From a virus: 64,000 nucleotides of DNA. Both the position numbers and the translations under genes were made by a program. Location of the stretch: positions 1-64,000 of IMG/VR virus record IMGVR_UViG_3300038428_000448; one strand, written 5' to 3'. Position 1 is the first letter of the stretch. The number at the start of each line of letters is the position of its first letter. Positions 5,501 to 37,767 of the stretch are shown here, piece by piece. The notes under the pieces are model-generated. The model was given only the letters and a program-made list of their open reading frames with translations, was not told the DNA's origin and searched no databases.

Positions 5501-8500
5501 AGTATTTGATGAACTTGCATATGAAGCTGAAAATGCAACAGTTGATGCAGAAGCATATGATGATGAAATTATATTGTTTGCCCAAGATGCCGTACCCCAA
5601 GTAGAGCCTGTGTGTGACCCATTCAAAAAACTTGCACTCGTTGATGAACTTGCATACGAAGATGAAAATGTTATGGTTGATGCGCTAGCGTATGAAGCTG
5701 AAAATGCAACTGTTGATGCGCTAGCGTATGAAGCTGATAGTGCCGTTACGTTTCCTGTAATACCGCTTGAAGAAATATTACTTGCCCATGACGCTGTTCC
5801 AAAAACCGAACCTGTAGAATTTCCATTTAAGAAACTTGCGCTAACTGACGAACTTGCCCATGATGAACTTATAGAAACACTTGATATACTTGCATATGAA
5901 GCAGAAATAACATTGGATGCCCAACTAGCCGTTCCCCACACCGAAGCCGTTGCATTACCATTTAGAAAACTTGCACTAACCGACGCAGAAGCCCAACTAG
6001 ATGATACACTAACTGTTGATGCACTAGCGTATGAAGATGATGTTGTAAATAATGAACGGGATGCAAATGAAGCGCTTGTGGTAAATAATGATGAACTAGC
6101 CCAACTTGATGATACATTAAATAATGACTGTGACGCCCATGATGCTGAAGTTGCATATGTTGCACTATTGATTGAACCTATTAAGAAACTTGCAGTACTT
6201 GCATAACTTGAACTGATTGATGCCGATGCCCAACTTGCACTATTTGATGGTCCACCAGAAGAAGGTGCCCAAGAAGCACTTATTGCATTACTAGCTGTTC
6301 CAATTAATGAACCTGTTAATAGAGTGAGTCCACTGGCATCAAAATATGCCATCTGAAAAGAATTACTAATAAGAAATCTAATCGAATTATTCGTGTTGGT
6401 TGATAACCATAAATCGCCACCAGCCATTTGAATATAACCATCCAATGGTTTAACCCAAGGCCAATCCCCATCATTATAATTGGAACTACCAATACCTAAA
6501 TCTATATAATGTGTTGTTTGACTTCCAATGTCAGCAGTTGCAACTATATCAGTAGAGGCACTTTGATTATTAGAAAAATTTTGATTATAGATTTGGAAAT
6601 AGTTGTTAACCGTTCCATAAGCCCCAATACAATTTACTGAAGATGTATTGATTTGAAATACAAGTAATGCTTCAGGATTAGTTGGAGTTGGACTACCAGA
6701 ATTAATAAGAACATATTGGCCACCATAAACCTGAACACTACCAGTCAACGTTAAACTTTGGTCGGGAGCCCAATACGGAATATGATATGGTGTAGCACCA
6801 ACGAATTGAGGCTTATTTGCCCTTACAAATACACCCGTTCCTGTACCTGTATATTCATCTTTAGTTAAATGATAATATTCACCACCCTGACCGCCTTGTA
6901 ATCCCAACAAACTGTTATGTTGAGTAACCGTAGCCGGAGCAAAGATTGTATTATAAGCTGATTGAACTGTTGGAGATGTTGAACCACTCTGAACAACAAT
7001 AGAACCAACCAATAAGCCAATGGCTTGTAATGTTGTAGGTATATTTGCTGGTGGTTGAGCAGATGTTTGTGCTTCCACTAAAGTAGGATATTGCTGAGAG
7101 CCTAATACAATAACAGCATCAGTTTTATTATCACAGACAAGAGTATATATAAAATTAACTGACCAAGAATTTGGCGTCAATGCAGTTAATCCGCCTATTC
7201 CATTATAATGAAGATTATCATAACCATACCCCGTTGAATAAGTCCAATTACTTGATGAATTAATATAATGGTAAGTTGTGCAACTTGCAGTTTGAGACGA
7301 TTGAAATTGTGAAATAAAATGTTGATTTGGTCCAAACCATACACTACCAGCCGTAATACCAAAATCCGAACCTGTTGTGAAAAGGGTGAAACCAGCTTGT
7401 CTCTCAAATTCATGTAATGTTATATCTTTATATTGCAAATTATTTGCAACTGCTAGTCCTGAAATACCTGTATTAAGTTGATGTATGTCCCAAGTGATTC
7501 CATTAAAATCAACATTTAACAAAGAAACGGCACATACACTAAGATTATCAATATAGTATGGATTTAATGATAATTCATATTGAGCACCACTACCTGAATG
7601 AGATGTAACAATAAAGTTAGTATAACCGGGTATCAGACCAAGGGTTGTTTGCGGTAGTGAATACTGAGTTACAACACCTGTTCCTGTTGAATCAGGGTAT
7701 AGATTGACACTACCTGTTGAAATAGTAATTGTTCCATTATTATTATTTGTTACAATGATATTTGATATTACACCAGCATATCGGTTTATGGTATTATCAG
7801 CATATGAAGAAGTTGTAGCATGTGATGAACTTATAGCATTTGTAGAAAAACTAGCCGATGTAGCTGAACCTTGTAAATTTCCTATAATATTAGAAACATT
7901 TAATGTAAAATCGGACATGTCATAACTTATGCCATTATTCTGGTCGGTATAAACCGATTGAACACCTGTATTAGTTTGAACAAATACAGGATACCATATT
8001 CCGGTATTTGTTTCATTTGTCTGTATATTTACAGCATTATAGGCGTTTGAAGAAGTATCAGAGAAACTTGCACTTACCGCATATGATGCAGTTCCACTAG
8101 ATAATGAGGTATATGATGCTGAAGTTAAATGATAATATTCACCTGATTGACCACCTTGAAGGCCACTCAAATCATTATGATATGTTATTCCCGAAGGAGA
8201 GAAATTTTGAACAAAAGCCGAATCTACTTGTGTTGCGGTGGCATCACCTTTATGATAGATTGCCCTACCAACCAAAATAGCAATATCAATAAGATGTTGT
8301 GGTGGAGTTGGTGGTTGTGATTGTTGAGCAGCAAGTAATGACCCATAATCCGGACTATACATTACTATTGTTGCATTATTATTTCCAACACCACGATAGA
8401 TATAATTGACAACGTAATGATTTGTACCCGATCCTAATGCTACAATATTTGTTCCATCATCACATTGAGTGCTGGTCATTTGTGTAATCAATGACCCTGA

Positions 8501-11020
8501 CCATACAGAAGCAGAATGTGCAACTAATATTGTTCTACTTGTGGACGAATTTACTGCAGGCAAAATTATTTGGCTTGCGCCCATCCACACACTACCTGAA
8601 GTTATGGAAATATATTTAGAACCACTTTCAGATAAATTTAGTCCATTCCCCCGTTGTATTCCTTGTGTCCATCCAACTTGCGTAAGCAGTTTATTAGCAA
8701 GTAATATACCGGGATTATCATATGATACGTAAGAAGGTGTGTTACTGGCACCATTTGTTATTGTATAAACATATGTAGTTTGTATGCTATCAACAACCGT
8801 TCTATCATAGGTAAGTTGATAAATTGGGCTTCCACTATTATAGGTGACAACAATATATCCAGCATTTAAGAACGATGAAGTATCAAAATTAAATGATGAT
8901 GATTGTAATGGATAATTTCTTACAAATCCGGTTCCATCTGATGTTGTGCATAGATTAACACTGCCCGTTCCAACAATAAAACTTGAACTATTAAGAAACG
9001 TAATAGAAGGCACATTCGTCATTCCAACAAATGGATATGGGCGTTGGCCCAAATTACTGACGTAAACTTGAACAATACCACTGCCACTATTTGCTGCTAC
9101 AACATATCCAACACCAACCGTTTGTGCTGGGTCAGGCAATGGAAATGGAACTATAGAACCCGACGTGGTATTTGATAGATATACTTGTTGACCCGGAACA
9201 AACATTGAAGTATCCAAGTTATAAATCAATCCCAACGTTGTAATAACACCAATACTACCACTATTGATTGCTTGTGGAGCCAATCCAATAACCGCTGACT
9301 TTTGACTGTTATTAACACCATCTGCTAATGCTAGTTTAACAATAGGAACATTACCGATAGAACCTGTAGAATATACAGAACTTCCGTTTGGTATGTATTC
9401 TCCAGCATAAGCTCTTATCCAAGTTTCTTGTCCAATTTCCAAAGGTAAGTTTGGAACATCTGAATACATTGCATAAGTCTTCGTAGAATCATCCCACCAC
9501 ATTTCTGCTGCTTTATATGGTGGTGTAAAAGAACTTGTTACAGATAAAATATATGATTGAGACAAATAGATATTAGCACCCGGATTTAAATAACTTGCTG
9601 AAAGTGATGACGATGCCCATGAAGCGCTTACAGATGAACCGCCACCCGGTGCCCAAGATGCACTTATAGAATTACTTGATGTTCCATACAACGAACCTGT
9701 AAATGATGGAGCCGTCAATCCACCTGTCATTGTATCACCTGTTCTTAATACAAATGTGCTTGAAGGTACGGGAATGGTTACACCAGCAGCAGTACCACCA
9801 TCTACAATCATGTGCATATCCGGTGTTCCTGTTCCATTATCACATTTGAATTTACAAACCAATCTATCGGTAAGATTTATTGCTATACTTGATGTGTTAA
9901 TGACTGGAACAGTAAAAGAGTCATTAACATTGGTTGTTATTGGAACGGATGATGGAGAAGGCAATTCAATATATTCAACACTTGCACTTCTTATATAAAT
10001 TTCAGGATGAACGGTATTAGCAGCAACACCACCAACCCTATAAAGATGAAAATGAACATTGATTGTTCCTTGAGAAATATTTTGAACATTAAGTGCTGGT
10101 GAAACGAACTCCATAAAATACTGTGAAGCCGAAACACTTGTAACAACGATTGCTGAAGTAGAAGCACTTAATGGAGATGTTAATTTTAACATCTGTTCAT
10201 ACCCCGGAATATCAGATGAAGCAGAACGAAAGTAGTAATCAAGTCCTTGTGGACTAATGCTGTCAACATAGTTTTTTGTGGCAACTTGATTTGCAGCCGT
10301 TGGATCAAGTGTTACAATATTACTAGCACTAATATATGATGCTGTAATACTATTTACTAAAATATTTTGTTGTTGTGATGACCAAGATGCACTTAATGAT
10401 TGCGATGACCATGAAGAACTGATGGATGTGTTAGAATCATCGGCTAAAGAAGCTGTTTCAGCTAACAATGCTACATCAGAAACTAATGACAATGATGCTA
10501 TATTTGCATATGATGATGACAAAACATTAAAAGCATAACTTGCGCTAATTGATGACGAGGCCCATGAAGAACTAACAGAGACATCTGCACGATAAGAAAA
10601 ATCGGTAAAATTAGATAAAATTGCTAATGATGCTGTATCTGTAATTTCTGCAAATGTTGAATAATTTGAAGTATCAGAATGATTTGCTTCAACAGCATGT
10701 GATGCACTTAAAGCTGTATCGGAATATGATGAACTCAAACTTTGTGATGCCCATGATGCAGATATAGTGGATACCACAGAAGAAGTAACATATGTTATCG
10801 AAGAAGAGACAGCATATGAAGCTGTGCCGGCCCATGAGGCAGTTTGGTCTTGAGTAAGAATAATATTACCAATGGAAGATGATGGGATTCCTCCTATAAC
10901 ATAACCAAGACCATCCAAAAGATAAGTGGTGGAGCCTGTCGGGTCAGCATATCTTTGCACCACATCTTGATAAGATGTAGAGATATATTGTTGAGTTAAA
11001 TCTCTTTGAGGAAATTGCAT
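2519..11020 (-). CDS. Giant tail fibre / receptor-binding protein with beta-helix domain (2833 aa)
   Basis: Mosaic fibre. Residues 1-50 are the virion anchor shared with the 1964-2458 protein. Around 220-260 is the fibre motif ATKNYVDS, and further on RTGDTMTGGL. About 660-965 and 1075-1387 are two diverged copies of one domain, each ending HN-x-L-x-GLQGGQ-x-GEYYHLT. About 1577-2203 is a Ser/Ala/Tyr/Trp array built from units such as GTASWASN and SASYASAS. About 2259-2677 matches pectate-lyase-3-type beta-helices (NVKQFGATGNNSTDDTAAIQ, FFPPGIYKVSAPI), the fold of phage depolymerases and tailspikes. The last ~155 residues form a beta-rich cap (LLFNCKIPAN, STGSILFRIRVGA) common on phage fibre ends. 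Likely trimeric and recognising or degrading surface glycan; the enzymatic activity is inferred. Antisense frames through the repeat array stay open only because of its codon bias. Confidence 0.88.
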   Translation of the reverse strand: MQFPQRDLTQQYISTSYQDVVQRYADPTGSTTYLLDGLGYVIGGIPSSSIGNIILTQDQTASWAGTASYAVSSSITYVTSSVVSTISASWASQSLSSSYSDTALSASHAVEANHSDTSNYSTFAEITDTASLAILSNFTDFSYRADVSVSSSWASSSISASYAFNVLSSSYANIASLSLVSDVALLAETASLADDSNTSISSSWSSQSLSASWSSQQQNILVNSITASYISASNIVTLDPTAANQVATKNYVDSISPQGLDYYFRSASSDIPGYEQMLKLTSPLSASTSAIVVTSVSASQYFMEFVSPALNVQNISQGTINVHFHLYRVGGVAANTVHPEIYIRSASVEYIELPSPSSVPITTNVNDSFTVPVINTSSIAINLTDRLVCKFKCDNGTGTPDMHMIVDGGTAAGVTIPVPSSTFVLRTGDTMTGGLTAPSFTGSLYGTSSNSISASWAPGGGSSVSASWASSSLSASYLNPGANIYLSQSYILSVTSSFTPPYKAAEMWWDDSTKTYAMYSDVPNLPLEIGQETWIRAYAGEYIPNGSSVYSTGSIGNVPIVKLALADGVNNSQKSAVIGLAPQAINSGSIGVITTLGLIYNLDTSMFVPGQQVYLSNTTSGSIVPFPLPDPAQTVGVGYVVAANSGSGIVQVYVSNLGQRPYPFVGMTNVPSITFLNSSSFIVGTGSVNLCTTSDGTGFVRNYPLQSSSFNFDTSSFLNAGYIVVTYNSGSPIYQLTYDRTVVDSIQTTYVYTITNGASNTPSYVSYDNPGILLANKLLTQVGWTQGIQRGNGLNLSESGSKYISITSGSVWMGASQIILPAVNSSTSRTILVAHSASVWSGSLITQMTSTQCDDGTNIVALGSGTNHYVVNYIYRGVGNNNATIVMYSPDYGSLLAAQQSQPPTPPQHLIDIAILVGRAIYHKGDATATQVDSAFVQNFSPSGITYHNDLSGLQGGQSGEYYHLTSASYTSLSSGTASYAVSASFSDTSSNAYNAVNIQTNETNTGIWYPVFVQTNTGVQSVYTDQNNGISYDMSDFTLNVSNIIGNLQGSATSASFSTNAISSSHATTSSYADNTINRYAGVISNIIVTNNNNGTITISTGSVNLYPDSTGTGVVTQYSLPQTTLGLIPGYTNFIVTSHSGSGAQYELSLNPYYIDNLSVCAVSLLNVDFNGITWDIHQLNTGISGLAVANNLQYKDITLHEFERQAGFTLFTTGSDFGITAGSVWFGPNQHFISQFQSSQTASCTTYHYINSSSNWTYSTGYGYDNLHYNGIGGLTALTPNSWSVNFIYTLVCDNKTDAVIVLGSQQYPTLVEAQTSAQPPANIPTTLQAIGLLVGSIVVQSGSTSPTVQSAYNTIFAPATVTQHNSLLGLQGGQGGEYYHLTKDEYTGTGTGVFVRANKPQFVGATPYHIPYWAPDQSLTLTGSVQVYGGQYVLINSGSPTPTNPEALLVFQINTSSVNCIGAYGTVNNYFQIYNQNFSNNQSASTDIVATADIGSQTTHYIDLGIGSSNYNDGDWPWVKPLDGYIQMAGGDLWLSTNTNNSIRFLISNSFQMAYFDASGLTLLTGSLIGTASNAISASWAPSSGGPSNSASWASASISSSYASTASFLIGSINSATYATSASWASQSLFNVSSSWASSSLFTTSASFASRSLFTTSSSYASASTVSVSSSWASASVSASFLNGNATASVWGTASWASNVISASYASISSVSISSSWASSSVSASFLNGNSTGSVFGTASWASNISSSGITGNVTALSASYASASTVAFSASYASASTITFSSSYASSSTSASFLNGSHTGSTWGTASWANNIISSSYASASTVAFSASYASSSNTSVSSSWASASISSSYASVSSVATSASYASSSTVAFSSSFASASISASFLNGFHTGSTWGTASWANNLNGTASWASNLAGTASWANNLAGTASWSTNAISSSFLNGSHTGSTWGTASWASNISSSGITGTIISSSYAGTSSFLSGNATASLWGTASWASNISSSGITGTIISSSYAGTSSLLLGSVQSATYATSASWASASLSSSIAATSNNTIYNFNLSTGSSGYQSIYIDTDLTYNPSTTQMSGSGFGITASFFGTSSWATNVISSSYAVSASFAPSTPSSYAISASWASQSFWAVSSSWASASISSSFLNGPATGSVWGTASWASNALTSNTASFCNGSVTGSVWGTASWASNALTSSIQSFYVTASNANWYLTFVATNTGSTAEYTTSSLYVNPSSGSLTATILSSSQFTGPVWTGYNVKQFGATGNNSTDDTAAIQLAISYSLAAPNPSTRSVDLFFPPGIYKVSAPISMSGNNVALIGSGIGSTVILNTATTGDILQIGNNTAGSTNVIELRHMQIYGNSARTSGSSININQANNVFIYDVGITNYYYGILIQNSSSVVRVDQGFINSGNPGSGSAIRVVNGPTGDTYISNLVFSNTPTTKPMNGIEIVQTGFTSLFKLDVAAFNYGLVIDPLANNDVSFIFCDHCLFDACGLAALLINPAGSTTARARSMIFQDAWFSGTTGTQTVNPSTNTAGFQSYGIVISGSNTGIIDDVKFTDCRILNNYCDGIKWLYSGANNILWSNCTVAGNSQSSSGVYNGFDICQNASNWMIEGCTIGTAGTATNTQKYAINFPSSSASSSFEIKGNNVSSNNTAPYLNIGPITGSPIIANNIGDASNGIADAALAGTVATSTANETLLFNCKIPANSVRIGQNFRILGVGTNSSTGSILFRIRVGANGTTSDNLAWTSVTSSAATVTNTRAGFSLIGTVRSLTTFNCDGMAYYSSSMINSTLAPAVATIAASSPWFIDITAQTNTGSFTLQECAIEAL
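4410..6290 (-). repeat. Degenerate Ser/Ala/Tyr/Trp fibre repeat array
   Basis: Coding tandem array in the giant fibre with short units (SASYAS, SSSWAS, GTASWASN, SFLNG-x-x-TGS). Higher-order copies are visible: a 39-residue (117-base) unit containing GTIISSSYAGTSS recurs with starts near 4962 and 5079, with a long stretch of identical bases. A related array lies in the gene at 45304-46608. Confidence 0.8.
6860..9040 (-). repeat. Tandem duplicated ~310-residue fibre domain
   Basis: Two diverged copies, about 8125-9040 and 6860-7790. Each begins with a V-x-x-I region and GSVNL, contains a SGSVW(M/F)G motif and a long segment ending in VG(R/S), and closes with HN-x-L-x-GLQGGQ-x-GEYYHLT. Divergence is high at the DNA level, so this is an old protein-domain duplication. 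Confidence 0.65.
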
Positions 11021-13534: not shown

Positions 13535-13987
13535 TTACCATATTTGAAACCCACCACATGTTCGAAGAAATTTGATAAATTTCTGAATGGTTCCAACATT
13601 AGTTTGATAGGGTTCTTCGCCGGGCTTTAAATGTGTGCCGGGTTTTATACCGGGTACGGTTTTTGGTAAATTTCGCCCTCTTACAGGACGATTATATGGT
13701 TGTTTCCCTATTAAAGATTCAAGAGCATTAGCGAGTTTATTACATTCTTCTTGAGTTTGCAAACCTTGACCATTATTATCTTGCCATCTATGCAAATCTT
13801 TAATACCTAAATTAAATTTAGCATTGGCTTGGCTTATAAGTTCAAGCAATGGACGATATTCCCAAGATGTGAGTGAGAACCGATTTATCGATAAAGCTAA
13901 CTTTGGAGTTCTTGGGATAAAATCAAACGTCTCATTAATTTGTTGAACGATTTCCTTAATAAGCCATTTTAATTGTTTTTTGGTCAT
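13535..13987 (-). CDS. Small unknown protein with capsid-targeting-like N-terminus
   Basis: I place the start at 13987, giving 150 residues from MTKKQLKWLIKEIVQQINE. A longer reading upstream would run through the terminator after the capsid gene and overlap that gene. The N-terminus is the basic amphipathic K-x-Q-L-x-x-x-I-x-E-I-V motif also seen at 28207 and, more loosely, at 32441, with I-N-E as a possible prohead-protease site. The middle is helical (YRPLLELISQANAKFNLGIK) and the C-terminus is Pro/Gly-rich. TATTTATA lies five bases before this start. It may be a late capsid-internal protein; the family is unknown. Confidence 0.6.
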   Translation of the reverse strand: MTKKQLKWLIKEIVQQINETFDFIPRTPKLALSINRFSLTSWEYRPLLELISQANAKFNLGIKDLHRWQDNNGQGLQTQEECNKLANALESLIGKQPYNRPVRGRNLPKTVPGIKPGTHLKPGEEPYQTNVGTIQKFIKFLRTCGGFQIW

Positions 13988-15969: not shown

Positions 15970-17580
15970 TTACTTCTTTTCAGGAGTAGCTTTTGGTGCA
16001 TCCTTGATTCCAGCGAGCTTCTTGAATCTCAGAGCCATCTCGTTACCTTCGGTAATTAACTTGGAAGGTTTCGTTGATGATACCGGCTTTGATGCGAATC
16101 CTTCGGTAATCTGCTTGACTTGGCCCTTTTGTGGAATTGGTTTTGCAACCGGCTTCACAGATTGGATTCTCGTCATATGCGTACCGAAATTTAGGGACTC
16201 CGCCAATAGGGCGTAGGCCAGCTTGACTTCACGAACACTCTTTGTTAGGTCAAATGATTCGACGATCTTCATACGATATGGGTCGTCCAAAACACCTGCG
16301 AATTCTTTAAACAACTTGTTCGTGTAGAGTAGTTTAGCATTCAACAGATTAACCTCATTAATTTGTCCACGAAGGAATTCAATGGTTTTATAAGCTTCCC
16401 TCAAAGCAACTTTGTATTGGGTAGCTTCTCCCATTGTTGGCTTACCAGTTCCCTCTGGGGTGCCTATATTACCTTTACCACTAATATTGTGGTTCTTGCC
16501 CGTGAGCTGTTTCTTACTAGCATCCGGGCCTGCTGGATAACCCTTTACTCCACCACCTTTGTTCTGACCAGCAAGTTCTGTGGTCGGAATCCCTTGGTTT
16601 TGTAGAGCTTCATCCATTTCTTCTTCCTCTTCCTCTTTCTTTCCTTCGTCTTCCTCTTCCGCTTCTTCATTGAGAGCGGCGAGTAATTCTTCAAGATTGA
16701 TATTTTCATCATCTTCGTCTTCTTCTCCCGGTGCTTTTGCAACAGGAGGTTCCTCAACGCCTCCAGCATTCATGCCGGCTGGCGCGGTGGCGGCCGCGGC
16801 ATCATCTTCTGGAGCAGCACCGTCTGCCGGTGGGCCATCAAGATTAATATCAACTGCGCTACCCGGTTCTGCATCAACCGGAATTTCTGCTTCCGGTTCA
16901 CCATCACCTGCGGCAGCAGGGGCCGGTGGTAATTCTGCATCTCCACCATCTATTGGTGCGGGGTCTTCTGTCGGAGCGGGGGCTGGAGCAACCGGTTCGT
17001 CTTCCACCTTTTTACCCTCTTCTTCATCAGCTACTTCATTTTCCAATTCCGCAATAATTTCATCTAAATCTTCCGAAGTCAGGCCAGCTTCACTAACGGC
17101 TTCATCACAGGTGCATAGGCTGGCGGGTTTACCACAAGTCTTGCATTCCTCAACAGATTCCTCTTCTTCATCGGCTACTTCGTCCATTTTTTTGCCTTCT
17201 TCTTCCTCTTCTTCGGCTGTCTCATTAACTTTTTTGCCGAGTTTTGGAACACCTGTTGGGCCTAACCCAGCTTGAACGGCTTTAAAACTTGTGTCACCAG
17301 CGCCACCTTTTGGTGTCTTTGGATTACCTTTAGTAACGGCTTTGGTTGCTGGGCCTTTGGCTTCGCCGCCTTTACCTGAAACTTGGTTTGGGGCTTCTAC
17401 TTCCTGTAGTCCCTCTTCTTCTTCCTCTTCTTCGGATTCCTCTTTTAGTCTGTCGGCAAACATTGCCTCAAAGCGAGGAGCGAAGGCTTCTTCAAGAGCA
17501 GCTTTAGCATTGGCGAGAGCAGTAGCTCTTACTGCCTTAGCATCAGCAATTGCTTCTTTTAATAGTTCGCTATTAATCAT
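15970..17580 (-). CDS. 22: Prohead core scaffold protein, gp22-like
   Basis: A 536-residue, strongly acidic protein directly upstream of the capsid gene, as gene 22 precedes 23 in T4. It has a helical N-terminus (KEAIADAKAVRATALANAKA, then FAPRFEAMFADRLKEE), long Glu runs and Pro/Ala linkers, a Cys cluster near 145 (CKTCGKPASLCTC), and a helical C-terminal part from about 410 (LREAYKTIEFLRGQINEVNL, then LFKEFAGVLDDPYRMKIVES). Candidate protease sites are L58-Q-E60|V61, L7-K-E9|A10 and L29-E-E31|A32, fitting a core that is degraded on maturation. The paired Cys motif could bind zinc and is not a feature I associate with T4 gp22. It is much longer than T4 gp22 (about 269 residues). Confidence 0.85.
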   Translation of the reverse strand: MINSELLKEAIADAKAVRATALANAKAALEEAFAPRFEAMFADRLKEESEEEEEEEGLQEVEAPNQVSGKGGEAKGPATKAVTKGNPKTPKGGAGDTSFKAVQAGLGPTGVPKLGKKVNETAEEEEEEGKKMDEVADEEEESVEECKTCGKPASLCTCDEAVSEAGLTSEDLDEIIAELENEVADEEEGKKVEDEPVAPAPAPTEDPAPIDGGDAELPPAPAAAGDGEPEAEIPVDAEPGSAVDINLDGPPADGAAPEDDAAAATAPAGMNAGGVEEPPVAKAPGEEDEDDENINLEELLAALNEEAEEEDEGKKEEEEEEMDEALQNQGIPTTELAGQNKGGGVKGYPAGPDASKKQLTGKNHNISGKGNIGTPEGTGKPTMGEATQYKVALREAYKTIEFLRGQINEVNLLNAKLLYTNKLFKEFAGVLDDPYRMKIVESFDLTKSVREVKLAYALLAESLNFGTHMTRIQSVKPVAKPIPQKGQVKQITEGFASKPVSSTKPSKLITEGNEMALRFKKLAGIKDAPKATPEKK

Positions 17581-17747: not shown

Positions 17748-18122
17748 ATGTATAATCATAAAGAATATCAGAAACAATGGAGAGAAACACATAAAGAATA
17801 TAAGAAAACGTGGTTCCAAAAACACAAAGAAAAATACAAAAAGAAATACAAAGAAAGTCAAAAAAATAGTTTTCTAGTTAAGAACTACGGCATTTCTATT
17901 GAACAATACAACGAACTGTTTCTTAAACAAAATGGTTGTTGTAAAATATGTGGCAGGCATCAGTCTGAATTTAAGAGAAGCCTTGCGGTTGACCATTGCC
18001 ATGATACAAAGAAAATTAGAGGATTACTATGTCATCACTGTAATCAAGGTATAGGTGCATTTTTTGAAGATATTTTAATAATGGAGAGAGCAATAAACTA
18101 TATTAAAGAATCTTCTAATTAG
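17748..18122 (+). CDS. Recombination endonuclease VII-like HNH nuclease
   Basis: A 124-residue protein. The N-terminal ~45 residues are a Lys/Glu-rich helix of repeated HKEY-K-K type. The C-terminal part is the endonuclease VII/HNH zinc nuclease: C-K-I-C-G-R, VDHCHDTKKIRGLLC and H-H-C-N-Q-G-I-G, giving the two zinc CxxC pairs and the D-H catalytic pair. T4 gp49 of this fold resolves branched DNA during packaging; free-standing HNH nucleases of this family also act as homing-type enzymes, so a selfish role is possible. It is the first gene of a plus-strand cluster that splits the capsid-assembly genes. Confidence 0.88.
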   Translation: MYNHKEYQKQWRETHKEYKKTWFQKHKEKYKKKYKESQKNSFLVKNYGISIEQYNELFLKQNGCCKICGRHQSEFKRSLAVDHCHDTKKIRGLLCHHCNQGIGAFFEDILIMERAINYIKESSN

Positions 18123-19264: not shown

Positions 19265-19272
19265 TATTTATA
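19265..19272 (+). promoter_or_regulatory. TATTTATA candidate late promoter
   Basis: Plus-strand TATTTATA four bases before the ATG at 19277, the same spacing as at 865-872. Confidence 0.5.
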
Positions 19273-19276
19273 TGAT

Positions 19277-19834
19277 ATGAAAGAAAATCTCGAAGTAAAA
19301 GAATTCAGTCTAAAAAAGATTTTAGAAAATCTTGACAATATTCCCCGTGACGGCGGTGCCAAGTTTGGCAACGAACAGCAAAAACTAACCCCACAACAGA
19401 AAAAAGATTTGATGGAAAAGGTCCGCAAATTCAATGAATATGGTAAAGTTCTGCGTTGTGAAACTGCCCTCATGGAAATGGCAAACACTCTTTCTGAAAT
19501 TGGTCAAATGGCGGAATCATATGCTATGACTGAATCCGGTGATTATTTTCAAGCCGAAGTTGTAAAAAGAGATTTCAATGAAGTAAAAAAAATTACCAAG
19601 GATTTTTCAAAGAGAGCTAGAGAATGTTACGGTGGACTTCAGCAATTAAATGCTCTCTATGAAGATATGGGCAGAAAAATGGAAAGATACTTTGAGATTC
19701 AATCTTTGGATGAAATTGCTTCAGTAATTACACAAGATGAATCTTCAGCACCTTCTCCGCAAATTGGTGAAGTGGCTGACGAAGAAGAGGAAGAATCTAT
19801 TTCTCTTCAAGAAGTTATTAAAAAAAAAGTATAA
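19277..19834 (+). CDS. Putative capsid-internal protein, upstream part of a frameshifted pair
   Basis: A 185-residue helical protein of unrecognised family (QKKDLMEKVRKFNEYGKVLR, CETALMEMANTLSEIGQMAE, then KKITKDFSKRARECYGGLQQ). It ends in an acidic linker and SLQE|VIKKKV, where L177-Q-E179 matches the prohead protease rule. The final lysines are coded by nine consecutive A (19820-19828). A -1 shift there reads straight into the next gene with no stop, giving a fusion of roughly 720 residues. The zero-frame product stops two codons after the A run. Whether the shift is programmed, transcriptional slippage or a sequence error cannot be told by reading alone. Confidence 0.7.
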   Translation: MKENLEVKEFSLKKILENLDNIPRDGGAKFGNEQQKLTPQQKKDLMEKVRKFNEYGKVLRCETALMEMANTLSEIGQMAESYAMTESGDYFQAEVVKRDFNEVKKITKDFSKRARECYGGLQQLNALYEDMGRKMERYFEIQSLDEIASVITQDESSAPSPQIGEVADEEEEESISLQEVIKKKV

Positions 19835-19862
19835 TAAATGAAGAGGGTCAACCCCTTGACCC
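19820..19862 (+). promoter_or_regulatory. Candidate -1 frameshift or slippage site (A9 plus hairpin)
   Basis: Nine A at 19820-19828 give an A-AAA-AAA heptamer in the reading frame, followed 16 bases later by a 7-base-pair GC-rich hairpin (19845-19851 with 19856-19862, loop CCCC). The -1 frame has a TAA at 19819-19821 and is open from there on into the gene at 19873. The A run is long enough for RNA polymerase slippage as well. The hairpin is further away than in typical -1 sites (5-9 bases). Confidence 0.6.
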
Positions 19863-19872
19863 CTACAAAACC

Positions 19873-21426
19873 ATGTGCGTAATAAAGCACAAGGGCAAAG
19901 AAGTTGGAAAAATTCCCGCATGCGCCGTAAACGCAGAAGCATATATAAATGAGCTAGCTAGTCATTATGGTGATCTCAACATAGAATATGTATATGATGC
20001 AAACGCTGCATTTTTAGCAGCTATGCATGGTGGTGTAAGAAGAGATATACCTAAAATAGATTCCAATAATGAAGAAGAGGAAACCACTTCTCTTCAAGAA
20101 GCTTCTTTAAAAAAAAAGATTCCTAAAAATGTAAAGGTTTCGGATGACCCGAAATTAGTACGCAAGTACAATGACATAATTAAATGGTTTAATGCTAGTC
20201 GAGCTAAGCAAGCTAAGCAAGCAGGCAAAAAAGCTCCGGCACCACTCCCATTGGCTCAATTAATTAAACCAAGTCAATTGGCTGCCACAACTAAACCAAC
20301 ATCCAAGTTAGGTAAATTAATTCAAAAAGCAAGAGAAAAAGGACCCACAGGAGGTAAAATGGGTTCAAAACTTACAGCTCCTTCAATATATAAAATGCGG
20401 GTTGGAAAAGCTAGAGGAAAAGCACCATCACCTAAATCAGTAGCAGTAAAAACAATTGAACCTACGATTCCATATGTGCCATTTGAACCTAAATGGAAAG
20501 AACCAAAGATTGACATTATCCGAGCACCGGAACAACCTGCTGTTCCTATAACGCAACCCACCAAATTGCTTGCTCCTCCAGCACAACCTAAATTACTTGC
20601 ACCGCCATCTGATGCAACACAACCGACAGCCGCTCCGACTCCAAAGGTAATAGCACCACCACCGGAAACATTACCTGATACAACTCCACAGATAACAAAA
20701 GATTACAATGATACCACCCATTACTTTGACCTAAATACAACAAAACAATATGAAATAGAAAGAAGGGCTAGGGATGAAACAGCAATTGAAAAACGTAACT
20801 TTCAAACAACAAACCCTGAAATGGTTGAGAGACTTTCAAAGTATATAGAAATAAGAAATAAAAGACTGGAAGAATGGAGAAAAAAATTAAAAAATGAAGT
20901 AATATCTCTTATTGAAGGTTTGCCTATGCATAAAATGATTCTTTTTTCTAGCGCAAGCCGAAGAACCAATGTGTTTATCCGCAAAGCAATGAAATTGGGA
21001 ACAATGCATTACGGAATAATTGATGTAGGTTCGGAAACGCGGTGGGTTGACCGATTGGAATTTTATGGAGAAACTGCTACTCCTCAAAAAGACCTATTAA
21101 GAAGAGAACCTGCTCCAATGCCTTATTATGTTCCACCTGAAGCAAGAAAATTTAAACATGAAAAATTATATGAAATTGATAAATTGATATACCGTATGAT
21201 TGGTGTAACCGACAGACCGGCATTAGGTTTGTTTGCATTGGACAAAGCGTTGGTCAAATACAAATTTTTGGATAAATCCATATTTGGTTTTAAGGATGAA
21301 GAACCATTTACTCGCACTTGGGACCCATCAAAGGGTGGCCGCCCATTGGAAGAACTAAGAGAAGTTATACGCGAAAGAATAGCTGAAAAATTGTTATTTG
21401 AATATATACATTCTTCTGCGAAATAA
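19873..21426 (+). CDS. Unknown protein, probable downstream part of a frameshifted polyprotein
   Basis: A 517-residue protein from the first ATG; the same frame is open back to 19822, and those extra codons (NEEGQPLDPYKT before MCVIKHKGKEVGKI) look like genuine coding sequence. Residues 1-55 form a small alpha/beta domain. Residues 66-83 hold an acidic linker with L74-Q-E76|A77 and another A9 run (20109-20117), closely mirroring the end of the previous gene. Residues 90-270 are basic and Pro-rich (repeated LLAPP). Residues 285-517 look folded (MILFSSASRRTNVFIRKAMK, then LGLFALDKALVKYKFLDKSI). The family is unknown. No Shine-Dalgarno precedes 19873. It is likely a protease-processed capsid or ejected protein. 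Confidence 0.65.
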   Translation: MCVIKHKGKEVGKIPACAVNAEAYINELASHYGDLNIEYVYDANAAFLAAMHGGVRRDIPKIDSNNEEEETTSLQEASLKKKIPKNVKVSDDPKLVRKYNDIIKWFNASRAKQAKQAGKKAPAPLPLAQLIKPSQLAATTKPTSKLGKLIQKAREKGPTGGKMGSKLTAPSIYKMRVGKARGKAPSPKSVAVKTIEPTIPYVPFEPKWKEPKIDIIRAPEQPAVPITQPTKLLAPPAQPKLLAPPSDATQPTAAPTPKVIAPPPETLPDTTPQITKDYNDTTHYFDLNTTKQYEIERRARDETAIEKRNFQTTNPEMVERLSKYIEIRNKRLEEWRKKLKNEVISLIEGLPMHKMILFSSASRRTNVFIRKAMKLGTMHYGIIDVGSETRWVDRLEFYGETATPQKDLLRREPAPMPYYVPPEARKFKHEKLYEIDKLIYRMIGVTDRPALGLFALDKALVKYKFLDKSIFGFKDEEPFTRTWDPSKGGRPLEELREVIRERIAEKLLFEYIHSSAK

Positions 21427-22900: not shown

Positions 22901-24124
22901 TTACATGAAAAATTTATTTTCCAATGGAACGGAAAGAACTTCATTATTCATTAAACAAATTCGTTTTACCCTTACGTCAGCAATAGCGCCTCCTAATGAC
23001 AGTGATTCCTTGTGATAACCTTCATACAATTTATGATAAAGTTCATTTACTTTTTCATAATTTACACTCTTTGGAAGCGTGGTCGTTTTGTAAGCTTCAT
23101 CCAATTTCTTTTGCGTGGATTCTGCAAATTCCATGACCTGCTCATAAGACCATGCACCGTTTTTGACGGCCAAGATTTCTTCACGGTCAGGACGCTTGAC
23201 AACAACCTTGTGGTCATTCAAGATTTCCAAACCCATTCGCATCAATCTGACAAGGTGTGAAGCATGTTTGGTATCATAACCGGATTTGACTTCCAATTCA
23301 TGTCTTGCCGGATTCCTATTCTTCTTCCAATTAAGCCAAGAATTGTAAGCTTCCATTTCCTTTTTGTAAAGTCTTTCCCTTTGCAGAATATCAACAATTT
23401 CTTCCTTCAAGTTGTATTCCTTGGACAAACGTTCAATGACACCGGCTTCATACATTTGAGGCCAATTACCTTCATTAACATCAACCTGTGAAACATTTTC
23501 AACGAGTTCCCAAATGGTTGATTTTAATTCATCGCGTTCCATTTCACTCAACGGAAATTGTGAAAGATTCCAGCGTTCAACTTCGGACTTGATTAAGCCA
23601 AAGATATCGTTCATTTGCTTTGGACGTTCAGCCGGCAGACCAAAATCTTCTCTTTTTGGTTGCTGAATTTCACCACGAACAATCCATTTTCTATGTCGTT
23701 CAATTTTTTTGGCTTGTGCATACGCATAACCGGCGAAGGTAAACTTTGCCTTGGATGATAGAAATAAATCTCTGTTCTCCATAAGAGCATCCATAGGAGA
23801 ATGAAAAACAAAGTGGTCGGTTGGGTCAGTCCACAATAATTCAATGATGTTTGGATTGACATTAGCGGCTAAAACCATGAACTTTTTCAAGGAATAAAGT
23901 GTGGATTCAAACTTAGGATTCTTTGGATTTTTTAAATGTGCCAAAAGTTCCTCAATTGCAGGATTATTCTCCGCCTGCTCAAATCGGTGAAAAAGATTAT
24001 TTTCCACTTCCTTTGGCGGAATAACAATACCCTTAACATCCACGTCTGATAACTCATTGTTCAGGCCATAAGCTTGTGAACCGTGAAGGGTTATATAGAT
24101 TGTATTTGGGACAAGCCACTTCAT
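22901..24124 (-). CDS. RlaP-like predicted nucleotidyltransferase (pol-beta fold)
   Basis: A 407-residue protein. HGSQAYGL followed by SDVDVKGI (residues 14-32) is the G-S-x(n)-D-x-D metal/NTP-binding motif of pol-beta-fold nucleotidyltransferases; with the following ESTLYSLKKFMVLAANVNPN and IIELLW it fits the COG3541/RlaP group linked to RNA repair. The C-terminal half is helical with KKNRNPARHELEVKSGYDTK and AYKTTTLP. Substrate unknown; phage copies may repair host-cleaved tRNA. A textbook host-type promoter (24131-24159) sits six bases before the ATG, predicting early, nearly leaderless expression of this gene and the small genes after it. Confidence 0.8.
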   Translation of the reverse strand: MKWLVPNTIYITLHGSQAYGLNNELSDVDVKGIVIPPKEVENNLFHRFEQAENNPAIEELLAHLKNPKNPKFESTLYSLKKFMVLAANVNPNIIELLWTDPTDHFVFHSPMDALMENRDLFLSSKAKFTFAGYAYAQAKKIERHRKWIVRGEIQQPKREDFGLPAERPKQMNDIFGLIKSEVERWNLSQFPLSEMERDELKSTIWELVENVSQVDVNEGNWPQMYEAGVIERLSKEYNLKEEIVDILQRERLYKKEMEAYNSWLNWKKNRNPARHELEVKSGYDTKHASHLVRLMRMGLEILNDHKVVVKRPDREEILAVKNGAWSYEQVMEFAESTQKKLDEAYKTTTLPKSVNYEKVNELYHKLYEGYHKESLSLGGAIADVRVKRICLMNNEVLSVPLENKFFM

Positions 24125-26655: not shown

Positions 26656-27171
26656 TTATTTCCAAAATTCTCTTATTTTCATCAACAATTTACCAAGGTT
26701 ATTTTGCCCACCCAACTTGATATCCACACCCCAAAAGGTATCTTTCCAATGATTTGTTTCTTCCAAAAACTTGTTGCCTGTATCGAGAAGTTTTTGACGC
26801 AATTCCTTGTTTCTGTAAAATTTATCAAAAAGTATGATAGACATTACCTCATATCTTCTACCATCCCATTCCTCTTTTGAGGAATCCATCAATGGATGTT
26901 TCTTCCATTCCTTTTTTGATTGATTGGAAGAGCAAGCTTGAAGATGATGGCGAAAATCAGAATCTATCTTTGCAGCTTGATAAGCATTTTCCGAAGACGG
27001 ATATAACAATCCTTCAAAATATACAGGACACCCATGAAAATTTGACAGCCACCGATAATCACCAAAGAAACCTTTAACATTGTCGTTATCATGAATGGCA
27101 TATAATTTCCAATCGCCAAATTTGTAGAAATTTCCCACAACAGGAGTTTCGTTAAACATTAATTCTGACAT
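26656..27171 (-). CDS. NADAR (YbiA-like) domain protein
   Basis: A 171-residue protein with the NADAR signature: RWLSNFHGCPVYFEG, Y-P-S-S-E-N-A-Y-Q-A-A-K and the C-terminal DTFWGV then GGQNNLGKLLMKIRE. NADAR proteins are N-glycosidases acting on ADP-ribose-linked substrates, including reversal of guanine ADP-ribosylation. Here it may protect phage nucleic acid or metabolites from NAD-based host defence, or balance the ADP-ribosyltransferase-like protein at the left edge; both are inference. A possible terminator of the gene upstream lies before it. Confidence 0.85.
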   Translation of the reverse strand: MSELMFNETPVVGNFYKFGDWKLYAIHDNDNVKGFFGDYRWLSNFHGCPVYFEGLLYPSSENAYQAAKIDSDFRHHLQACSSNQSKKEWKKHPLMDSSKEEWDGRRYEVMSIILFDKFYRNKELRQKLLDTGNKFLEETNHWKDTFWGVDIKLGGQNNLGKLLMKIREFWK

Positions 27172-28467: not shown

Positions 28468-29097
28468 TTATCCGATTTCAGTCAAGATGTCCCTAATAAT
28501 GGTTTCAATTCTTTCCCATTTTTGATTGATGGGATTTTGAACCATGTTTTTTACACCTTCCTGAAGATTGCCTGATGGAAACATGAAGGCGCCCCTTGTG
28601 CTTGGATTGGATACAAAGTCGAAAGCAATGAGTTCAAAATCATCTTGAACCACATCTGCTTCTTCGTTCATACTCTTATTGACTGTTCCCAATCCACGAC
28701 TAGAAATACCCAATCGAATATTAGCTTTGAACAATTCTCTTAAAATATTTCCATTTGGGGTGGGTAAAACTTCCACCGTTCCTATAAGGTCGTCGCCTTC
28801 CCAATGCATTTCCACAACATTATGGGAAACGTTTTGAAGATTGACCACGGAAGATTCCGGGTGGTCCAATTCACCCAAAGCTCGTCTTTCTTTTATGAAA
28901 TTTTCCTCATATTTTTTAGATTCACGAAAGAGAGTGTCCTTGGGATACATTCTACCGTTTTGGTTCTTTATACCAGCACGCTGTAAAATACCCTTGACAA
29001 CCAATCTTCTTCCATCAGAACGAATGGCTTCCTCAAAGAGATTGTCTTTGACAAACTCGAAAGTTATACAATCTACCAATAATTGTTTAGTGTTCAT
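28468..29097 (-). CDS. 21: Prohead maturation protease, T4 gp21-like
   Basis: A 209-residue protein of the gp21/family S80 pattern: LVVKGILQRAGIKNQNGRMY, then ALGELDHPESS carrying the catalytic-type His, and RLGISSRGLGTV carrying the Ser, followed by ELIAFDFVSNPSTRGAF. In T4 it cuts scaffold and capsid after (I/L)-x-E; such sites are visible here in the scaffold, capsid protein, portal tail and several others. It is encoded between the core proteins and a zinc-ribbon gene, and is separated from scaffold and capsid genes by about 11 kb of unrelated genes, unlike the contiguous T4 order. Confidence 0.92.
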   Translation of the reverse strand: MNTKQLLVDCITFEFVKDNLFEEAIRSDGRRLVVKGILQRAGIKNQNGRMYPKDTLFRESKKYEENFIKERRALGELDHPESSVVNLQNVSHNVVEMHWEGDDLIGTVEVLPTPNGNILRELFKANIRLGISSRGLGTVNKSMNEEADVVQDDFELIAFDFVSNPSTRGAFMFPSGNLQEGVKNMVQNPINQKWERIETIIRDILTEIG

Positions 29098-29101
29098 AAT
29101 T

Positions 29102-30214
29102 TTAAACGTTCCATCCTACTTCTTTGATATATTCCAAAAGATAATATCTACCATTTTTAACTATATCAATGGAACCCTTTGAATGTTTTCCATAAAGTGT
29201 TTGTTGTCTCATGGAATCAATCGCAGCCAATCGGACATCTCTACCATCCACATTACTTATCATGTGGCTTTCAGGAATTGACAACTGACAATGAATTGTA
29301 GTAGAATTTTTCCCTTCTGACAACATGGTTGACAAATCTTTCATATAAGGGAAGAAATTAACCTTGTTATTTTCATTCTTTACATTATCGGACATAAATT
29401 CTACAAGGAACTTATTCAAGTCGTTTTGAACCTGTTCAGCCACAGGCAAACCCTTCTTTTTCTTTTTTCGCGGGTCTTCGGGTTCCGGTTCTGCTGGAGC
29501 AGGTTCCGCTGGTGCCGGAGCTTGCTTTGGAACTTGCTGTGGAGCCATTGGTGCCGGTTCCTGAGTATTGACTTGCGGAACAGCCTTGGGTGGTTGTTCT
29601 TCCGGTGTTGGCGGCGCACCACCCGGTGGAGCAACATTCGGTGATTCTTCCTTGCCGCCTGCTGTTGGTGGTTGACCTTCCGGTTCAACTTCGCCAGCGG
29701 CTGGTTTCTCTTCACTGCCCGGAGCCGGTTCAGAACCTTCACTTTCAATCTTGATATTGATACCCGGAGTCAAAAAATATTTTTTGTCATTTTGGTCGGT
29801 GGCTATGACCACATAATCCTTATACCAAAATTCCACGCTGATTTTCTTGACGTTTTCTATGGTGTAATCGGTCTTTGGTTGTCCATAGCCCCGCGATGAA
29901 TTTGCCACAATGGTTTTATTGAGCAACCTCTTGTTCATTTTGTCCAAGAGAATTTTCTTAGCTTCTGCTTCAGCCTTGTTTTTTTTATCCTCAAACGCCC
30001 TAAAGTCGCGGGTAAAATCATATTCCGATGGATCTTCAGGTTCAGGTGAAGTTTCAGGTGCAGGAGTTTCAGGTGCTGGTGTTTCCGGTAATCCAGCACT
30101 CATGCCTTGTGGGGGCGCAACCGGAGCAGGCACGGGAGCCGCCGGGCTCATTGCTGGCGGCTGTGGAGCCTGTTCAGTTAAATTCAACAAGTTTCTCAAT
30201 TTTAATCTTTTCAT
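29102..30214 (-). CDS. Candidate prohead core protein, Pro/Ala-rich
   Basis: A 370-residue protein. The N-terminus MKRLKLRNLLNLTE|QAP is short and basic and ends in L-T-E, like a cleavable capsid-targeting sequence. Pro/Ala/Glu-rich linkers flank a small beta domain (about 95-155, EFWYKDYVVIATDQNDKKYF); a second folded region occupies about 260-370 (LNKFLVEFMSDNVKNENNKV, then TTIHCQLSIPESHMISNVDG). It lies between the 741-residue protein and the protease with gaps of one and four bases. By position it corresponds to the T4 core-protein genes 67/68, but I see no sequence proof. Function inferred. Confidence 0.65.
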   Translation of the reverse strand: MKRLKLRNLLNLTEQAPQPPAMSPAAPVPAPVAPPQGMSAGLPETPAPETPAPETSPEPEDPSEYDFTRDFRAFEDKKNKAEAEAKKILLDKMNKRLLNKTIVANSSRGYGQPKTDYTIENVKKISVEFWYKDYVVIATDQNDKKYFLTPGINIKIESEGSEPAPGSEEKPAAGEVEPEGQPPTAGGKEESPNVAPPGGAPPTPEEQPPKAVPQVNTQEPAPMAPQQVPKQAPAPAEPAPAEPEPEDPRKKKKKGLPVAEQVQNDLNKFLVEFMSDNVKNENNKVNFFPYMKDLSTMLSEGKNSTTIHCQLSIPESHMISNVDGRDVRLAAIDSMRQQTLYGKHSKGSIDIVKNGRYYLLEYIKEVGWNV

Positions 30215-37149: not shown

Positions 37150-37767
37150 TTATTTCTTCAATTCGGATTCAAGAGTAGCTATTTCTTTTTCCATTTTTTC
37201 TATTTCTTTGTTAACTTTTATAAAATCACTTTCTGCATCCTTTAACCATTGGGAATTACATTTACCCGTCCAAGTCATCATTTCACCATTAGACATGACC
37301 TCACCCACCTTACCTGAATCATTTTTAAGATAATTGATTGATTCTATAACCTTTTCCTTAAATTCTTTCAAGGCGCCAAGTTTATTTTTCATCACCTTCA
37401 TTGTTTCATAATTTTCCCACTGCTCTCCGTTAATCCGATACTGCATTTCTTCAGCTTCGAGACAATCATAACACTTACCTGTTTTTGGAAACACTTTTTG
37501 GTCTAATTTATTCCCATACGCTCTAACATTTGTACCACACACAGAACACTTTGAAGCTTCATTAATTTTGTCAAGTATGGGAGTGTCAATTGCGTTTATT
37601 TGAACTTTATAGCCATTTTTCTTTTGCCATTTTCTTCCTTGGGAATCCTTCCATATTTCACCTTCTTTTTTTTTGGAAAGGTCGGCTTCATAGCCAATTT
37701 GAACAAATGGATGTTCTCCATCAAGAACTTGTTGTATTGTAGTATAATTCCATTTTCTTCTAGCCAT
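37150..37767 (-). CDS. Zinc-finger/coiled-coil protein, candidate small terminase partner
   Basis: A 205-residue protein one base upstream of the terminase. The N-terminus (TIQQVLDGEHPFVQIGYEAD, then GRKWQKKNGYKV) precedes a zinc site C-S-V-C-G and C-Y-D-C (about 93-120) and a long C-terminal coiled coil (DFIKVNKEIEKMEKEIATLE). I recall this gene type beside terminases in T4-like environmental phages, but the role is unproven. Position and coiled coil make it a candidate for the gp16-like small subunit; there is no clear helix-turn-helix. AAAGGAT precedes the ATG. Confidence 0.65.
   Translation of the reverse strand: MARRKWNYTTIQQVLDGEHPFVQIGYEADLSKKKEGEIWKDSQGRKWQKKNGYKVQINAIDTPILDKINEASKCSVCGTNVRAYGNKLDQKVFPKTGKCYDCLEAEEMQYRINGEQWENYETMKVMKNKLGALKEFKEKVIESINYLKNDSGKVGEVMSNGEMMTWTGKCNSQWLKDAESDFIKVNKEIEKMEKEIATLESELKK

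Follow-up and report, generated by a model that had tools for sequence, protein, structure and literature searches.

A conserved run of nine A in T4-like phages may fuse exchangeable, protease-releasable cargo to a head-region protein

Retroviruses and totiviruses characteristically use frameshifting to dope their particles with a minor component that can be cleaved: a minor product is fused to a structural carrier (Gag-Pol), the fusion is packaged via the carrier and the product is later cut (PMC5009743). Extensions of phage capsid proteins through frameshifting are also well known (PMC5009743): in T7/T3 gp10A/10B, Lactobacillus phage A2 and Listeria phage PSA/A118 a frameshift near the 3' end yields a minor, C-terminally extended form of a major capsid or tail protein, and the extension stays attached. 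The internal proteins and Alt of T4 are cargo that has a targeting peptide and a start codon of its own. They are carried into the prohead core and cut free at L/I-x-E, with a C-terminal cut in Alt as well (PMC5694885, PMC9026906); T4 gp21 cuts Alt after the L/I-x-E sequences ITE-6 and LTE-619 (PMC5694885). Lambda-type gpG/gpGT relies on a -1 slip on A-rich sequence close to the end of the gene, and transcriptional slippage in Thermus dnaX, Shigella spa13/mxiE and IS elements occurs at A9/T9 runs with no need for a conserved stimulator. Bacterial transcription slips on nine-A runs, and E. coli genes almost never contain AAA_AAA_AAA (PMC5009743). The PRFect paper remarks on head-associated MuF and VIP2 ADP-ribosyltransferase genes that occur fused and that, where they lie in different frames, might use frameshifting (PMC10885494). 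Our search of the open-access literature found no arrangement in phage heads like the one described below, which is weak evidence of novelty.

We analysed 64,000 nucleotides (the window), most of a 64,556-base virus record from a T4-like phage. One locus resembles Gag-Pol in having a structural carrier that would be joined to a minor product by frameshifting. It differs in that the virus is a dsDNA tailed phage, the payload is neither polymerase nor protease, the protease is encoded elsewhere and there is no conserved pseudoknot; packaging and cleavage are putative here, and gene position makes the carrier a candidate component of the assembling particle. The frameshift near the 3' end and the minor C-terminally extended form recall T7/T3, A2 and PSA/A118, but here a small head-region protein would receive exchangeable payloads flanked by LxE/INE motifs. 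Unlike T4 cargo, the payload seems to ride another protein via slippage. Unlike gpG/gpGT, the carrier belongs to a head cluster beside gp22/gp23 and has no adjacent tape-measure gene and no family match; we considered it as a tail assembly chaperone of that type and rejected this identity, since it does not precede a tape measure gene and lies among gp22/gp23 and small, conserved genes of the head region. In contrast to Thermus dnaX, Shigella spa13/mxiE and IS elements, the slipping machine here could be either RNA polymerase or the ribosome.

Head genes in the window include gp23 (Pfam Gp23, E 9e-71), nearest among named phages to those of Microcystis phage Mel-JY01, Flavobacterium phage immuto and Rhodothermus phage RM378, and the gp20 portal (E 1.5e-66). 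The gp22-like protein gave no family match, its label coming from position and composition; it contains EEEEEEEGLQE-VEAPN. In Mel-JY01 the carrier homologue WWT39310 lies directly 3' of the prohead protease. The motif TATTTATA is likely a late promoter yielding nearly leaderless mRNAs and also precedes the carrier in the relatives L007, L010, L011 and L012 described below. In the window it stands a few bases 5' of many starts (865, 12072, 13532, 14000, 19265, 40103, 50759 and others), and on the opposite strand it reads as the T4 late motif TATAAATA. Coordinates are collected in Table 1.

Table 1. Features of the carrier-payload locus and of related head genes in the window.
Feature	Position	Strand	Basis
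gp22-like core protein	15970..17580	-	Position beside gp23, acidic composition
Putative late-promoter motif TATTTATA	19265..19272	+	Just 5' of carrier start; none before 19873
Carrier protein, 185 aa, widespread T4-like head-region protein	19277..19834	+	At least 535 IMG/VR relatives, mostly distant; beside gp22/gp23
SLQE, putative upstream protease site (cut between LQE and V)	19802..19813	+	Sequence motif; predicted cleavage
A9 slippage run = Lys-Lys-Lys	19820..19828	+	Exactly A9 in window, L003, L007 and L010
-1 frame ORF (payload), 534 codons	19822..21426	+	Open frame; stop at 21424-21426
INE in -1 frame (ATA AAT GAA), putative downstream protease site	19834..19842	+	Overlaps end of zero-frame stop codon
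Hairpin GGGTCAACCCCTTGACCC, GGGTCAA-CCCC-TTGACCC	19845..19862	+	z -3.3 over 80-nt stretch; role doubtful
Payload module 1, small predicted beta-beta-alpha-beta domain, then acidic stretch	19873..20090	+	Single-sequence AlphaFold2
Second junction copy, SLQE + A9 in frame in -1 ORF	20091..20117	+	DNA alignment of two junctions
Payload module 2, Pro-rich linker + helical C-terminus	20118..21423	+	No matches in Pfam, PHROGs, phage tblastn, IMG/VR
gp21-type prohead protease, candidate processing enzyme	28468..29097	-	Pfam Peptidase_S77 E 1.3e-25; phrog_207 E 5e-52

Direct reading confirmed the original prediction that the carrier gene closes with three AAA lysine codons made of the nine A; its 3' end reads ATT AAA AAA AAA GTA TAA, with the zero-frame stop at 19832-19834. 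The -1 frame is indeed free of stops through the next gene (chance of 534 open codons, about 1e-16), and a -1 slip at A9 would produce a fusion of 716 aa, where about 720 residues had been estimated. A/T runs of nine or more number three in the window, against 7.4 expected from dinucleotide shuffles, and two are the junctions of Table 1. The third, a T9 at 37666-37674, was set aside as an in-frame A9 inside a 205-aa minus-strand gene, not a gene-end junction. SLQE occurs only twice among the window's proteins. Together these figures rule out a chance arrangement.

Close relatives of the carrier were collected from 11 IMG/VR contigs in five distinct forms, with 84-89% protein identity in the conserved part. 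Forms with A9 occupy eight contigs (L003 and four identical contigs; L007 and L008; L010), and the forms L011 and L009/L012 have neither the run nor the continuation. A search of homologues for the same split, suggested at the outset, thus gave a positive answer: exactly A9, at the same site and out of frame, recurs in four lineages and nine contigs including the window, and no homologue encoding the second protein alone was seen among the relatives. In the carrier gene the window is 77-84% identical in DNA to the three A9 relatives, the four lineages differing by 16-23%. Beyond the carrier stop the -1 frame continues for 199 (L003), 167 (L007) and 228 (L010) codons, and each of the four -1 ORFs would stay open by chance with a probability of 1e-16 to 3e-6. 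Besides the junction run, the loci of L003 (20.5 kb), L007 (13.0 kb) and L010 (12.8 kb) contain no other run of nine or more; those of L011 and L012, without the -1 ORF, have none at all. L009, L011, L012, L023-L025 and L097 lack the run, a comparable -1 ORF, KKK and a C-terminal LxE. On the tree, L007 groups with L011/L012.

The conserved -1 ORFs lack a near start codon in three of the four lineages that share the run, the window having ATG 19873. In the three relatives none occurs for 25-49 codons past the run, the first ATG/GTG/TTG lying about 28 (L007) and 49 (L010) codons into the -1 frame. The L007 and L010 payloads nevertheless align over about 100 residues (local score z 11.7 against shuffles), and their similarity begins at LNEG/INEG, before any possible start codon, so that the payloads of the relatives could hardly be reached by ordinary initiation. 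The L003 and L010 payloads are likewise homologous (z 9.7 against shuffles). The window payload, however, is unrelated to the other three (z at most 2.2), yet its carrier is closest to that of L003, so payloads have been exchanged. In L012, L024 and L097 the carrier stop is directly followed by a terminator with TTCGGAATGG before it, and in L007 and L010 this block comes after the payload stop; the payload therefore belongs to the transcription unit of the carrier, lying between carrier and terminator. In L012, which has neither A9 nor payload, the same small cluster 5' of the carrier includes an ART-PolyVal ADP-ribosyltransferase gene (8263-8976, +; Pfam E 6.5e-19), a possible head-delivered effector.

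These comparisons, from the conserved A9 to the -1 proteins and their missing starts, lend strong support to the proposal that -1 slippage at A9 joins two genes, and we consider it very probable that this slippage is programmed. The run begins at codon position 1 in the window and L010 and at position 3 in L003 and L007, so exactly nine A are kept in two codon phases, although nine also follows from KKK. An equal length in two phases suits transcriptional slippage, and equally ribosomal slippage on A_AAA_AAA/G; the A_AAA_AAR heptamer is present in both phases, an SD-like AGGA/GGAG is confined to L007/L010, and a strong hairpin to the window. The GC-rich hairpin originally noted is present but probably not a stimulator: it begins 16 nt beyond A9, which is far for a -1 shift, it has no counterpart in L003 or L007, and no downstream stimulator is conserved.

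Motifs of the type cut by gp21 flank the run. Soon after the lysines the -1 frames read KKKSIINE, KKKLNE, KKKVNPFLFEVVRRLNE and KKKTATINE, giving [LI]NE in all four lineages, a motif present in 1.3% of 20-residue windows across the proteins of this phage; the pattern was noticed post hoc, and the four cases are not independent because three of the payloads are homologous. Before the lysines stand LQE (window), LTE (L003 and L010) and MQE (L007), so that a C-terminal [LI]xE is found in three of four A9 carriers and in none of six carriers without A9. The same LQE-V as at the upstream site of the window carrier follows an acidic stretch in gp22 of the window, L003 and L007. The original proposal of prohead-protease-type sites is supported at the level of motifs, LQE and INE in the window being matched by LTE, LNE and INE near the run in relatives, with L007 deviating upstream; cleavage itself is predicted from the motifs.

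We think it rather likely that the locus is a Gag-Pol-like device in which a head/core carrier is tailed by slippage with a gp21-cleavable payload and loaded into the head. Most carrier copies would end just past the three lysines. A minority would enter the -1 frame at A9, whether through an A added by RNA polymerase or through slipping of the ribosome on the AAA codons, and would gain the C-terminal payload. The carrier part would bring the fusion into the assembling prohead core, where the gp21-type protease would cut at LQE before the lysines and at INE after them, freeing the payload inside the head, perhaps for ejection into the next host; slippage frequency would set payload copy number. 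The sequences themselves display the conserved A9, the start-less -1 coding, the joint presence of run and payload, the exchange of payloads and the protease-type motifs. From these we infer that slippage happens and of what type, as well as targeting to the prohead, cleavage and ejection; motifs and gene position are what point to cargo loading and gp21 release. Against this explanation we counted the possible independent start at ATG 19873, the MQE of L007 in place of [LI]xE, and the want of a conserved stimulator. What the original prediction called a 'capsid polyprotein' is better seen as a carrier from the head region to which an exchangeable and releasable payload would be joined.

The main competitor accepts slippage but sees the extended product as a minor head-protein form that stays permanently uncut, as in T7 10B and the phage A2 head protein. 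Frameshift-extended capsid proteins have precedent (PMC5009743), and the three-letter L/I-x-E is common (17% of 20-aa windows). The stricter [LI]NE after every run speaks against permanence, as do a C-terminal LxE confined to A9-bearing carriers and the LQE-V shared with gp22, and payload swapping would be odd for a structural extension; we regard permanent attachment as unlikely. That the two genes are ordinary neighbours, the second starting at ATG 19873 and A9 being incidental, gains from the existence of this ATG. Its lack of a Shine-Dalgarno, correctly noted beforehand, has little meaning and is no objection, as 41 of the 48 genes here have none either. The conserved start-less stretch shared by L007 and L010, the A9 as sole long run in three loci and the missing promoter motif before 19873 nonetheless make ordinary neighbours very improbable.

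Two further explanations turn on the length of the A tract. One added A would join the frames, and a homopolymer error of assembly or sequencing in one continuous gene had been named as an alternative from the start. All nine contigs, drawn from several metagenomes and representing four diverged lineages, show the same unfused A9, followed by different -1 proteins, three of them without start codons; this excludes such an error for practical purposes. Homopolymer tracts are also classic contingency loci, and the tract could mutate within the population between A9 (off) and A10 (on). Such phase variation is in our view highly unlikely, all nine contigs having A9 and none being fused, and a second family described below being uniformly A10 and also unfused.

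Turning to the payload, module 1 of the window was modelled with a block of pLDDT 70-85 (P0001 residues about 11-60, single-sequence AlphaFold2); it has no database relatives, and its profile showed no link to the other payloads. The second A9, at 20109-20117, does follow a second SLQE as originally described, but the -1 ORF contains it in frame (SLKKKIP), so that slippage at this point would shorten the product instead of lengthening it. The second junction, similar in DNA and lying between the two payload modules, is likely a tandem insertion at the same junction type. The window payload matched nothing in IMG/VR, phages, Pfam or PHROGs, and its model was poor and the fold search empty; no relatives turned up among genome contigs, and Rfam gave no RNA family. 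The L010 payload model has a block of pLDDT 75-86 over roughly residues 30-100 (mean 59), with no convincing fold match in PDB or BFVD. An ADP-ribosyltransferase identity for the payload, suggested by motif resemblance alone, was dropped for want of support.

To look beyond this family we scanned IMG/VR for ORFs of at least 80 codons ending at such a run. At least 32 places were listed, and in at least 25 the -1 frame is open for 60 codons or more, several being copies of each other or of the window family. The pattern forces TGA in +1, which makes +1 openness unusable as a control, and INE/LNE in -1, so only open frames and their conservation count there. An unrelated second family (L208, L219, L231, L234/L245), similar to the virion structural protein phrog_14154, has A10 in all members and a zero frame ending LSSKKK; its -1 extension, KKKINE plus about 100-125 residues, is 30-52% conserved, with third codon positions diverging most. 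Run and conserved extension recur in four lineages, and this is possibly a frameshift lacking earlier description. The T4-like contig L232, which encodes gp20 and gp21 of its own, has a C-terminal stretch in -1 after A9 that appears in frame in the LR756500.1 homologue. L158, the L177 group and L214 were rejected as new cases, since they look like tail assembly chaperones, already known.

More tentatively, poly-A slippage at the ends of T4-like head genes could be a general way of dosing cargo that is rapidly exchanged and set free by the protease. It would be a DNA-phage counterpart of Gag-Pol with two unrelated carrier families, the window family using A9 and the virion-structural family A10, and a gp21-type motif just after the slip. 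If true, tailed-phage heads would have a second internal-protein loading route besides the capsid targeting sequence, pointing to head cargo that evolves fast and may consist of host-takeover or anti-defence factors, and annotation pipelines would truncate or miss such proteins. If A9 slips, recoding it to AAGAAGAAG would alter the payload level.

Two other loci have long -1 ORFs. In L247 (reverse complement, 9771), in the head-gene region of another phage, A10 joins an 86-aa ORF to a 494-codon -1 ORF (KKKSINEANSASS...) with no start for 144 codons. At L174:3930 A9 ends a 219-aa, nucleotidase-looking gene with no Pfam match, and the 292-codon -1 ORF begins KKTLNEG, its first start lying 62 codons in. 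In the window, two N-termini resemble T4-type capsid targeting peptides ending L/I-x-E, MTKKQLKWLIKEIVQQINE-TF (13535-13987) and MKRLKLRNLLNLTE-QAPQ (29102-30214, -). Possible NAD/RNA-repair genes encode a NADAR domain protein (26656-27171, -; E 3.7e-20) and an RlaP-type nucleotidyltransferase (22901-24124, -; E 4e-13). Between gp22 and the head-region cluster lies an Endonuclease VII-like HNH gene (17748-18122, +; E 8.8e-21), probably a homing endonuclease, and a similar ORF is present in L007.
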